64,000 nt of DNA, from the NCBI RefSeq assembly GCF_014127285.1, contig NZ_CP059901.1, positions 1,736,001-1,800,000 on the forward strand, in the 5' to 3' direction. The notes beneath the pieces are model-generated. The model was not told where the DNA came from and made no database searches. It worked only from the letters and a program-made list of their open reading frames with translations. This document shows positions 54,609-63,776 of this stretch, piece after piece (the stretch's first letter is position 1; every line of letters begins with the position of its first letter). Made by a program: the position numbers and the translations under genes. The DNA comes from Mumia sp. ZJ1417 (GTDB lineage: Bacteria > Actinomycetota > Actinomycetes > Propionibacteriales > Nocardioidaceae).

Positions 54609-55295
54609 TCACGGACGGCGGCGCAGGAACGGCCGGACGAGGCCGACCAAGTCGTCACCGGGGGCGGCGCCGATCTCCTGGCGGAGCCGTAGCGCGTACG
54701 CGCGGAACCGTCGTGCGGCCTCGACCCGGTTCCCCTCCCGTACGAGCGCCTCGACGAGCGCCGTCACGGCCGACTCGCGGAGCGGCTCGGCGCACACGGC
54801 GGCGAGGCCGGCACCGGTCGCGAGCGGGTACGCCCCGGCCTCGGACGCCGTCCGGCACACGGCCTCGAGCGCCTGGATCCGTCGCAGGTGGAACTGGTCC
54901 TGCTCGTCGAGGACCCAGGGCTCGTACCAGCCGGGCAGGAGGTCGTGCTTCAGCATCTCCACCCCGTCGGCGCCGACAGGCGTGTCGGCAAGCGCCTGAT
55001 CGGCCACCCGGCGCGCGTCGAGGAGGTCGACCGAGGCCTCGAGCTCCAGCTCGAGACCGTCGGGACGTACCCAGCGGCGCGGGAGCTGCCACAGCGCGCG
55101 GCGCAGGTTCGCCCGGGCGCGGGCCTCGGAGACCTCAGGCCACAGGTCCGTGCCCGTGAGGAGCCGGTTCGTCCGGGGACCCTTCACCGCCAGGTAGGCG
55201 AGCACACGGCGGCCTGCGCCTGACAGCCGCTCGACGGGCCGCGTCCCGAGCCCGCCGAGGACGCCGACGCGACGCGTTCCGTACGAGCTGGCCAC
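54609..55295 (-). CDS. BTAD-domain (SARP-like) transcriptional regulator
   Basis: A 228-residue regulator: an N-terminal winged-helix region (about 5-80, ERLSGAGRRVLAYLAVKGP then NLLR-like ARANLRRALWQLPRRW) and a bacterial transcriptional activator domain (about 85-225). No ATPase or TPR part, so it is a short SARP-like activator. The GTG at 55295 has AGGAG 8 nt upstream; longer readings run through the upstream non-coding region. It diverges from the six-gene operon starting at 55628 and is its most likely local regulator. That is an inference. Confidence 0.85.
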   Translation of the reverse strand: MASSYGTRRVGVLGGLGTRPVERLSGAGRRVLAYLAVKGPRTNRLLTGTDLWPEVSEARARANLRRALWQLPRRWVRPDGLELELEASVDLLDARRVADQALADTPVGADGVEMLKHDLLPGWYEPWVLDEQDQFHLRRIQALEAVCRTASEAGAYPLATGAGLAAVCAEPLRESAVTALVEALVREGNRVEAARRFRAYALRLRQEIGAAPGDDLVGLVRPFLRRRP

Positions 55296-55627
55296 CGGTT
55301 TGCTCCTGAGTCCGCGGCGCGTCCGGACGAGGCGTCGGGGGGACACGCGACGGCGGAGACGGGCGCGGGCGGTCTGCGCGACAAGTCTTCGACCCCACGA
55401 GCATAGGGCCTCCGAGGGCTCGCGCCGCCGCCAATGTCGCCGGGCCTGCTTGCACGGGACGGTACGGGGTACGGGGCCGGCTACGGCGGCGGGACGCTGC
55501 ACGGACGAGGCAGCGGCGACAGCGGGTACGAGACAGGGCCGCAGACGGAGCGGCGACGGGAGCGTGGCGGGTACGGGCACCTCGCAGGCTGGTGCGTGTC
55601 GGCAACGACGAGCTCTGGGAGGGCGCG
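55296..55627. other. 332-bp intergenic region between the BTAD regulator and the operon
   Basis: GC-rich DNA with no assignable gene. It holds the regulator's ribosome binding site at its left end, two adjacent GGTACGGG copies near 55460, and a GGGAGG ribosome binding site just before 55628. I could not pick a convincing promoter; a GCATAGGG near 55411 is a weak -10 candidate. The length is unusual for this compact window and suits a regulated divergent promoter. Confidence 0.5.
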
Positions 55628-63024: not shown

Positions 63025-63776
63025 GCACGGCCGGCCTCGTTGTACGGACGCACTGGTACCACCCCGAGTGGTGTGCCGTGGCGCTCGCTGCCGCGGCATG
63101 GGCATCGCTGCTTGCCGTCGGGCTGGGCGAGCCAGGCCACTTCTTCGGGTCGGGTGAGGTCCACCCTCCGCTGCACGCGCTGTCGCACGCGGCGGTGATG
63201 TCGACGGCGATGATGGTGCCGTTCGTCCTGCCGCAGGTCGCCCATGTCGCGCACACCAGCCTCTGGCCGCGGCGCTACCGGGCCGCGGTCGCCTATCTCG
63301 TCGGCTACCTCGCGGTGTGGACGGTCGTCGCTGCCGTCACGATCACGCTCGGGGGACTCCTGGCCACCGCGATCGGGTGGCGCCCCGCGATCGTGGTCGG
63401 CTTCGCGGTCGCGGTGGTGGCGTACGTCGCTCCTGGCCGCCAACGCCTCGTGCGCCAGTGCGCCATGACGAGGCCGCTCGCGCCGCGTGGGTGGCGCGCT
63501 GATCGTGACTGCGCCCGCTATGGCATGGCGACCGCGAGGCGGTGCGTCGCGACGTGCTGGGTGCTCATGACGGCGGTGATGATCGGGCACGGACTCGTCG
63601 TGATGGCCCTTGCCACTGTGCTCGGCGTGGTCGAGCGCCGACGCGGCGGCAACGTCTCACGAGCGGACGGCGCGCTCGTCGTGGTCGGTCTGGGGCTGCT
63701 CTCGCTCGCGCTCTCGTACGGGGTGGTCGGCGGCGAGGCGCCGTTGCCCGGGCACCCCGCCGAGCACCAGCACTGA
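63021..63776 (+). CDS. DUF2182-type integral membrane protein
   Basis: A 251-residue membrane protein with about six helices. The VMSTAMMVPFVLP motif and the later CARYGMATARRCVATCWVLM segment are typical of DUF2182 proteins. The Met-, Cys- and His-rich motifs in or near membrane helices, and a His-containing tail (GHPAEHQH), suggest a metal-binding role, probably copper given the tyrosinase gene it overlaps (ATGA). That role is inferred; the family's function is not established to my knowledge. Confidence 0.85.
   Translation: MSTAGLVVRTHWYHPEWCAVALAAAAWASLLAVGLGEPGHFFGSGEVHPPLHALSHAAVMSTAMMVPFVLPQVAHVAHTSLWPRRYRAAVAYLVGYLAVWTVVAAVTITLGGLLATAIGWRPAIVVGFAVAVVAYVAPGRQRLVRQCAMTRPLAPRGWRADRDCARYGMATARRCVATCWVLMTAVMIGHGLVVMALATVLGVVERRRGGNVSRADGALVVVGLGLLSLALSYGVVGGEAPLPGHPAEHQH

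Follow-up and report, generated by a model that had tools for sequence, protein, structure and literature searches.

Two described systems come close to parts of the locus analysed here. The sections of PMC2855505 used here report that PpoB2 passes copper to PpoB1, a tyrosinase of Marinomonas mediterranea, and those of PMC12352652 describe archaeal peptidoglycan hydrolases that kill bacteria, of which only 67 of 210 have a recognised signal peptide. We analysed a stretch of 64,000 nucleotides (hereafter the window; positions 1736001–1800000) of the 4.19 Mb single-contig genome of Mumia sp. ZJ1417, in which six consecutive genes on the + strand (g1 to g6; 55628–63776 of the window) lie next to a regulator diverging on the − strand. 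A preliminary description had reported this six-gene unit, with a divergent BTAD regulator and 4-nucleotide overlaps at most junctions, and both points were confirmed: gene calls and Pfam matches recovered the unit and its regulator, and three of the five g1–g6 junctions were 4-nucleotide overlaps, the other two being gaps of 13 and 12 nucleotides. Pfam matches were confined to the ends of the operon, that is, to the tyrosinase g5, the PpoB2-type protein g6 and the divergent regulator. Judged by sequence comparison, g1–g4 have no credible match to a known family and do not appear to be a tyrosinase pathway, and g1, g2 and g4 are three families nameless in the libraries searched. We give about even chances to the view that the locus is a self-contained module that would deploy wall-acting enzymes (the cargo, here g5) outside the cell, the cargo bearing a short N-terminal tag that it shares with g1.

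A core conserved across phyla

A g2 profile run over one genome per species (84,980 species) returned 90 relatives, and the best 80 loci were retained. As the 90 came from two short peptide patterns, the breadth is a lower bound and is skewed toward close relatives. Five more loci, four of them duplicating places among the 80, complete the 85-locus set used throughout. Gene calls identified g2 in 84, g1 in 83 and g4 in 82 of these loci, and the misses were explained: one locus (L018), where gene calling failed, has all parts by six-frame search, two (L037 and L060) end at contig edges, and L066 has a partial g4 at the contig end. The order g1–g2–(g3)–g4 was kept wherever the contig allows; counted from g1 (83 cases at 0), g2 was found at +1 in 82 cases, and g4 at +3 in 63 and at +2 in 16. 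The same gene order recurring in distant phyla is beyond chance. The co-occurrence of homologs of the 813- and 373-residue proteins (g1 and g4) with the HExxH protein (g2) in distant phyla, put forward in the preliminary description as a check, was thus borne out.

The tree of 77 g2 sequences, a quick tree without bootstrap that omits L009–L013, L015, L018, L066 and L079, covered 11 phyla as assigned from record titles. Besides the window, its rows comprised 42 Actinomycetota, 16 Pseudomonadota, 9 Bacteroidota and 2 Cyanobacteriota, with one row each for Methanobacteriota, Nitrospirota, Fischeribacteriota, Myxococcota, Verrucomicrobiota, Planctomycetota and Acidobacteriota. The g2 of the window was placed in a clade of 18 rows with a Shimodaira–Hasegawa-like approximate likelihood ratio test (SH-aLRT) value of 100, which contained 10 Pseudomonadota and 8 Actinomycetota including the window; three of its members (L019, L028 and L070) are uncultured or binned genomes. 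Relatives of the divergent regulator (E <= 1e-5) numbered 43 in 41 of the 85 loci, and 29 of the 43 directly adjoin g1. A SARP/BTAD regulator adjoins the core in ten Pseudomonadota loci (L022–L029, L031 and L070); because regulators of this type are usual in Actinomycetota, their position beside Pseudomonadota cores suggests transfer of the whole unit.

Closer to the window, g4 relatives were present in 6 of 196 genomes of its order, its own genome included. Two of the six are congeners that carry the same six genes (L012 and L013), and the g2 of Mumia species showed 88–91% identity to that of the window. The remaining three belong to other taxonomic families: the contig of L011 (the same place as L021) ends just past g4, inside a gene starting with the tag; L009 has the same core followed by an M15/VanY protein; and L010 (the same place as L092) has the same core followed by a trypsin-like protease and a VanY protein.

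An exchangeable cargo position

Tyrosinase followed the core in only 7 of the 85 loci (two places double-counted) and in L018, all of them in Mumia, Phycicoccus and Gordonia, so that its co-occurrence with the core, named in the preliminary description as part of the same check, did not hold as a general rule. PpoB2 was the next gene after tyrosinase in seven of seven called loci (two places double-counted) and in L018, and was found in none of the remaining loci of the set; since it is present only with tyrosinase, PpoB2 belongs to the cargo and not to the core. The preliminary description had called g6 a DUF2182-type membrane protein; the membrane protein stands, and the family already has the name PpoB2, a copper chaperone.

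The Pfam families among 53 downstream proteins (overlapping, and taken from the 25 listed of 30) were PG_binding_1 (14 proteins); M15_3, VanY and M15_2 (10 each); Glucosaminidase (9); PG_binding_3 (5); Tyrosinase, DUF7868 and DUF2272 (4 each); M15_4 and DUF2515 (3 each); Amidase_2, Phage_lysozyme2, OmpA and two trypsin families (2 each); and SLT, M74, M23, NlpC/P60 and others (1 each). Scanned singly, 36 of 48 downstream proteins (the window g5 and 47 others, a few being second downstream genes) had a peptidoglycan-cutting or -binding Pfam domain, a count that excludes OmpA and includes one Pesticin match just below the cut-off. Within the 18-row clade of the window alone, the cargo was tyrosinase, M15_3, VanY, DUF2272 with PG_binding, PhoD with PG_binding, or M35 with VanY, PG_binding and glucosaminidase. 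With six cargo types in one g2 clade, the core is constant and the enzyme is exchanged. At one locus, a second gene behind the cargo is of the NlpC/P60 type and has no tag (L023:18418-19329; Pfam 8.3e-8), and similar starts were seen in L025, L026 and L027.

None of 55 first downstream genes had a signal-peptide-like hydrophobic start (Kyte–Doolittle >1.6 within the first 60 residues) vs 134 of 688 other genes; counts on these 55 exclude the window itself and eight repeated or nearly identical loci, so that two Mumia places drop out entirely. No stretch of the window g5 exceeded 1.2 on the same scale, in agreement with the earlier view of a cytoplasmic-looking tyrosinase. The PDB relatives of g5 were hemocyanin and polyphenol oxidase, and His 279, 299, 303, 308, 430, 434, 461, 462 and others were conserved in six of six tyrosinase cargos; these histidines presumably belong to the two copper sites. 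Against the NCBIfam equivalog for MelC2, the Streptomyces tyrosinase, g5 scored 46.8 bits, below the cut-off of 450.

A pigment or wall-crosslinking operon, with g1–g4 as tyrosinase maturation factors, would account for the presence in one operon with the core of tyrosinase and PpoB2, a known functional pair according to the sections of PMC2855505 used here. In most loci, however, the core is paired with other cargo, and PpoB2 alone tracks tyrosinase, and we regard this explanation as very improbable. A tyrosinase pathway as the core of the system was rejected, and melanin as its main purpose, the simpler alternative offered earlier, is unlikely, because the core mostly occurs without tyrosinase. 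The preliminary interpretation is thus partly supported: a complex that carries something is retained in the form of a cargo module with a shared tag, whereas quinone chemistry as the point of the system is not, given the predominance of peptidoglycan-related downstream proteins, and the quinone theme belongs to one local version of a module that is far broader.

A tag shared by g1 and the cargo

The E-[ST]-P-F tails noted earlier in the Mumia proteins were confirmed in g1 and g5 (Table 1) and recurred across the loci. The motif [ST]PF occurred within the first 80 residues of 72 of 84 g1, 34 of 69 first downstream genes, 3 of 42 second downstream genes and 11 of 759 others; among the other core genes it was found in 1 of 85 g2, 2 of 82 g4 and 0 of 65 g3. 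When the motif was required in acidic context (E or D, a spacer of at most two residues and [STAN]PF, located in the first 120 residues), it was present in 50 of 74 g1 and 30 of 55 first downstream genes vs 5 of 688 others (Fisher 3e-33 for first downstream genes against others), and in 0 of 75 g2, 0 of 58 g3 and 1 of 74 g4; the use of [STAN] in place of [ST] was picked after seeing the data, as was a further motif, WP..DV[FW]. The latter stands near the N-terminus of the cargos of Arthrobacter, Nocardia and relatives (L046, L054, L059, L078, L088 and others), where it replaces E-[ST]-P-F or accompanies it.

The arrangement of the motifs was also similar in g1 and the cargo. Two is the usual number in g1 (42 of 73), with a median spacing of 27 residues, and the seven cargos with two motifs had spacings of 27, 27, 28, 26, 25, 23 and 17. 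The presence or absence of Leu after PF agreed between g1 and the cargo in 29 of 31 loci (p 2e-4, uncorrected for kinship, which may explain part of the agreement). A search of the Mumia genome with a stringent DNA pattern for E-[ST]-P-F-[AS]-E matched g1 alone, so no orphan tagged genes are shown there.

Short shared tags on enzymes that lack signal peptides resemble the cargo of intracellular compartments, and the module could be read as a cytoplasmic compartment or storage assembly of encapsulin-like logic, in which g1 would be a shell or condensate and the tagged enzymes would stay inside. The usual substrate of the cargo, peptidoglycan, lies outside the cytoplasm, though, and no capsid-like family was matched by sequence; we hold such an assembly to be improbable.

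Sequence features of g1, g2 and g4

As reported earlier, g1 is divided into acidic and cationic regions: its charge is about −0.2 per residue across residues 1–120, a cationic amphipathic segment follows (Table 1), and an arginine-rich stretch lies at about residues 661–720. Its hydropathy peaks at 1.27 (Kyte–Doolittle), below the usual limit for a membrane helix, and no clear transmembrane helix was found. Across the family, 32 of 74 g1 have a 19-residue stretch >1.6, and none of the 74 has a signal-peptide-like hydrophobic start by the measure used for the cargo. No credible relative of g1 was found in Pfam, NCBIfam, PDB, PHROGs or PADLOC.

The HEAGH protease-like protein of the preliminary description corresponds to g2, in which H191, E192 and H195 (HExxH), together with E231, D235 and H269, were invariant in 67 of 67 aligned sequences. 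This pattern of HExxH and a downstream acidic ligand fits a candidate zinc protease. No named family in Pfam or NCBIfam was found for g2, and its profile had no convincing PDB relative; the same was true of g4, which has no relatives in Pfam or NCBIfam and no convincing PDB relative by profile, and in which seven residues were invariant across 63 aligned rows. The family alignments took in 70 of 73 g1, 63 of 67 g4 and 67 of 76 g2 called proteins of accepted length. Scanning 67 g2 and 63 g4 members singly yielded no credible Pfam family; LNT_N in 2 of 67 g2, Rv2175c_C and wHTH-HSP90_Na-assoc in 1 of 63 g4 each, and the weak core matches CTU2, T3SS_needle_F and DHX37_C were taken as chance.

Archaeal carriers and the lysis alternative

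The module sits between the same flanking genes in two genomes of one phylum, Methanosarcina sp. MSH10X1 (L034) and G390 (a 3.28 Mb contig), which argues against contamination. Both archaeal cargos contain an SLT transglycosylase and a peptidoglycan-binding domain. Since Methanosarcina has no murein of its own, these enzymes should act on a target that is not the producer.

The archaeal copies bear on a reading of the module as programmed self-lysis or own-wall remodelling, in which g1 would be holin-like, the cargo endolysin- or autolysin-like, and the regulator would switch the unit on in development. The cargo domains do resemble endolysins and autolysins, and g1 combines hydrophobic and amphipathic segments, with hydropathic stretches in the proportion of family members given above. 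A murein transglycosylase in an archaeal group without murein fits poorly with such a role, as do the low hydropathy peak of the window g1 and the fact that a tyrosinase or trypsin cargo would not lyse the cell; moreover, we know of no precedent for a tag common to a holin and an endolysin. Self-lysis or own-wall remodelling is therefore unlikely in our view, and it is still the most credible of the alternatives to the tagged-cargo module.

Searches for known machinery

A further possibility is that a known secretion machine, such as a contractile injection system, a type VI secretion system (T6SS) or a type VII secretion system (T7SS), recognises the tag as its signal, with g1, g2 and g4 as adaptors that load its cargo. 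Archaeal peptidoglycan hydrolases that lack a signal peptide show some enrichment (P = 0.059) among genomes carrying a phage sheath gene, according to the sections of PMC12352652 used here. A sheath match (PF04984) was obtained in 15 of 42 carrier genomes, 13 of them above the family cut-off (L026 is outside the 42). The window genome and 26 other carriers among the 42 had no sheath match, in a search made with the phage-sheath family alone and not for T7SS or other machines, and dependence on a contractile system was rejected on this ground. No secretion family stood out in the 22 largest neighbour clusters, and the carriers include Gram-positive, Gram-negative and archaeal envelopes, which to our knowledge share no exporter other than Sec and Tat. 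A loader for a known machine is accordingly about as improbable as the compartment.

Two other origins were tried and rejected. For a phage origin, the core genes g1, g2 and g4 had no match in PHROGs, g3 was also without a credible match, no g2 match was found in 50,697 phage records, and a g4 scan of viral contigs gave two pattern matches and no relative. For known anti-phage defence, none of the seven proteins matched a PADLOC model.

A possible distant zincin branch

Zincin-like proteins at 11 further loci (L100–L102 and L113–L120) matched the g2 profile with E values of 1.6e-21 to 1.2e-56. Three of the 11, out of five plasmid matches, lie on plasmids of Rhizobium, Paraburkholderia and Ensifer, and the other eight come from phylum-sample genomes; the motif was HExGHQ in nine and HEVAHN in two. 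Their neighbours include short acidic proteins, often EFE-rich or with an Asp-rich N-terminus, that contain an amphipathic segment such as FLGGLxKKA and a glycine-rich stretch; a weak match to the g1 profile was found in 6 of the 11 loci (2.8e-8 to 8.2e-5). A protein of about 520–830 amino acids also occurs at distant loci. In several of them we presume, from sequence resemblance, a pyridoxal-phosphate-type enzyme, an amidohydrolase and an NtrC-like regulator.

The amidohydrolase, found by motif in five distant loci, has close relatives at L038:9853-10404 and L044:14841-15680 (E down to 5e-78), and its position beside these two loci of the window kind links the two branches. The acidic N-terminus, the amphipathic segment and the HExxH protein matching the g2 profile are shared with the window module, whereas the g1-like proteins are short and glycine-rich, g4 is absent among the genes listed and the other neighbours differ. 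We infer that the EFE-rich/zincin loci may be a second branch of the module.

Layout of the locus in Mumia

The features of the locus are given in Table 1. Gene calls were made with a simple in-house caller and start codons are uncertain; for g1, these calls place an alternative start at a GTG at 55592, leaving its exact start unsure. The divergent region upstream of g1 had been described as the longest gap in the window, which is not clearly so, as the gene calls gave gaps of 354 nucleotides (46944–47299) and 327 nucleotides (10913–11241) elsewhere. SARP-type repeats were sought in this upstream region, and none was consistent between Mumia species. Just beyond the operon, a gene of 106 amino acids on the − strand (L014:2790-3110) is matched by related genes at the corresponding position in other Mumia (L012 and L013); it is outside the core.

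Table 1. Coordinates of the regulator, the operon genes and their motifs and domains in the window
Feature	Position	Strand	Basis
SARP-like regulator, BTAD domain, divergent from operon	54609-55295	-	Pfam BTAD 1.4e-12
332-bp divergent intergenic region, presumed promoter region	55296-55627	.	Open reading frame coordinates
g1, 813 amino acids, presumed carrier or membrane-active part	55628-58069	+	Tagged acidic N-terminus, cationic amphipathic and second hydrophobic segment, Arg-rich part
First TPF tag of g1, residues 15-17	55670-55678	+	Sequence motif
Second TPF tag of g1, residues 41-43, 26 residues past the first	55748-55756	+	Sequence motif
Cationic amphipathic segment of g1, residues 160-236, net +12	56105-56335	+	Charge, high helical moment
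Second hydrophobic/amphipathic segment of g1, residues 334-402	56627-56833	+	Hydropathy
g2, 416 amino acids, zincin-like metalloprotease candidate	58066-59316	+	Invariant HExxH; no named family
HEAGH motif of g2, residues 191-195	58636-58650	+	Sequence, family alignment
g3, 145 amino acids, small variable protein	59330-59767	+	Gene calls; uncalled in part of loci
g4, 373 amino acids, conserved core protein	59764-60885	+	Family alignment; without relatives in searched libraries
g5, 708 amino acids, cargo: tagged peptidoglycan-binding tyrosinase, C-terminal DUF7868	60898-63024	+	Pfam; PDB relatives
SPF tag of cargo g5, residues 24-26	60967-60975	+	Sequence motif
PG_binding_1 domain of g5	61291-61440	+	Pfam 1e-7; endolysin PHROGs also match
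Tyrosinase domain of g5	61711-62319	+	Pfam 9.3e-32
DUF7868 domain of g5	62542-63018	+	Pfam 3.6e-31
g6, 251 amino acids, PpoB2-type membrane copper chaperone, presumed tyrosinase helper	63021-63776	+	Pfam PF09948 1.8e-16

Discussion

In the model that we favour, a common receptor (g4 or g2) would bind the tags and join cargo and g1 in the cytoplasm, and g2 would remove the tags or otherwise mature the assembly. The cationic amphipathic segments of g1 may then carry the load across or onto membranes; alternatively, lysis of a few producer cells would free the assembly. In Mumia, the warhead would be a tyrosinase anchored to peptidoglycan that receives its copper from PpoB2 and makes quinones at the target wall. 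The module is likely used to attack other bacteria, because most cargos examined are predicted to cut or bind bacterial peptidoglycan and because the archaeal copies carry murein-acting cargo. The export step is the weakest point of the model, and both the release route and the target are ones that we infer.

Several observations weigh against this model. No export-channel family was among the Pfam matches of the module, no recurrent immunity gene was seen downstream of the cargo among the 22 largest neighbour clusters (1202 called proteins), and peptidoglycan-acting enzymes can also remodel the own wall in bacteria. The module is scarce: among 296 Actinomycetota the window genome was the 1 carrier, and the module was found in 2 of 246 genomes sampled from the phylum of Methanosarcina, 4 of 247 Bacteroidota (three of the four of the distant kind) and 6 of 349 Pseudomonadota (five of the six of the distant kind), each phylum sample including the carrier it was centred on. 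In 19 of the 77 loci that have g4, no gene follows it on the same strand within 250 nucleotides, and the contig ends within 600 nucleotides in only about five of them. Among the 55 first downstream genes, 25 lack the tag in acidic context and 27 lack the plain [ST]PF, at least two (L030 and L045) are probably not cargo and yet were counted, and the WP..DV[FW] motif, present in 11 of them vs 0 of 688 others, was noticed in the same data; only 2 of 25 second downstream genes have the tag in acidic context. Finally, a peptidoglycan-related domain is missing from 12 of the 48 downstream proteins scanned singly, five of which lack any Pfam match (L033, L040, the first cargo of L042, L078 and L084).

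A broader proposal, which we consider possible and which is less probable than the tagged-cargo module itself, is that bacteria and archaea share a form of delivery in which a tag-addressed, protease-matured, membrane-active carrier of g1, g2 and g4 would bring exchangeable signal-less warheads against bacterial walls with no contractile tail or dedicated envelope channel, the Mumia warhead being a copper oxidase and the EFE-rich/zincin loci a second branch. If true, this would be a new way for cells of very different envelopes to place leaderless enzymes outside, it would provide a route out of the cell for some signal-less archaeal peptidoglycan hydrolases, and its short portable address tag would perhaps be usable for loading other enzymes. 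Whatever the function, three families with a defined order, a protease motif, a shared tag and a partner list in about 80 loci are testable.

Comparison with known systems

Word searches of open-licence papers (exact words, top-ranked matches) returned no description of the gene set or its logic. The main text of the lipocone paper PMC12419801 contains neither 'tyrosinase' nor 'SPF', and that of PMC12352652 does not mention 'Methanosarcina'.

The PpoB1–PpoB2 operon of Marinomonas mediterranea likewise combines a tyrosinase and a membrane copper chaperone of the PpoB2/COG5486 type in one operon. In Mumia, by contrast, the two genes occupy the exchangeable end of a larger module, and the tyrosinase has in addition a tag, a peptidoglycan-binding domain and DUF7868. 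Phage holin–endolysin cassettes also pair a membrane-active-looking protein with a murein hydrolase in one operon, but g1, g2 and g4 are without PHROG matches and the archaeal carriers are without murein. Polymorphic toxins and the effectors of T6SS or extracellular contractile injection systems have a conserved delivery part and swappable effector domains, as does the present module, which differs from them in having no trafficking-domain match, no sheath in the window genome and no immunity gene among the largest neighbour clusters.

Weaponised peptidoglycan hydrolases, including the archaeal Woldo and Danwoldo, have a similar modular build, PG_binding_1 with a cutter such as glucosaminidase, and a patchy occurrence in bacteria and archaea, according to the sections of PMC12352652 used here. 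Woldo and Danwoldo carry Tat signals in that account, whereas cargo of the window kind has instead an E-[STAN]-P-F tail and is encoded behind g1, the zincin-like g2 and g4.

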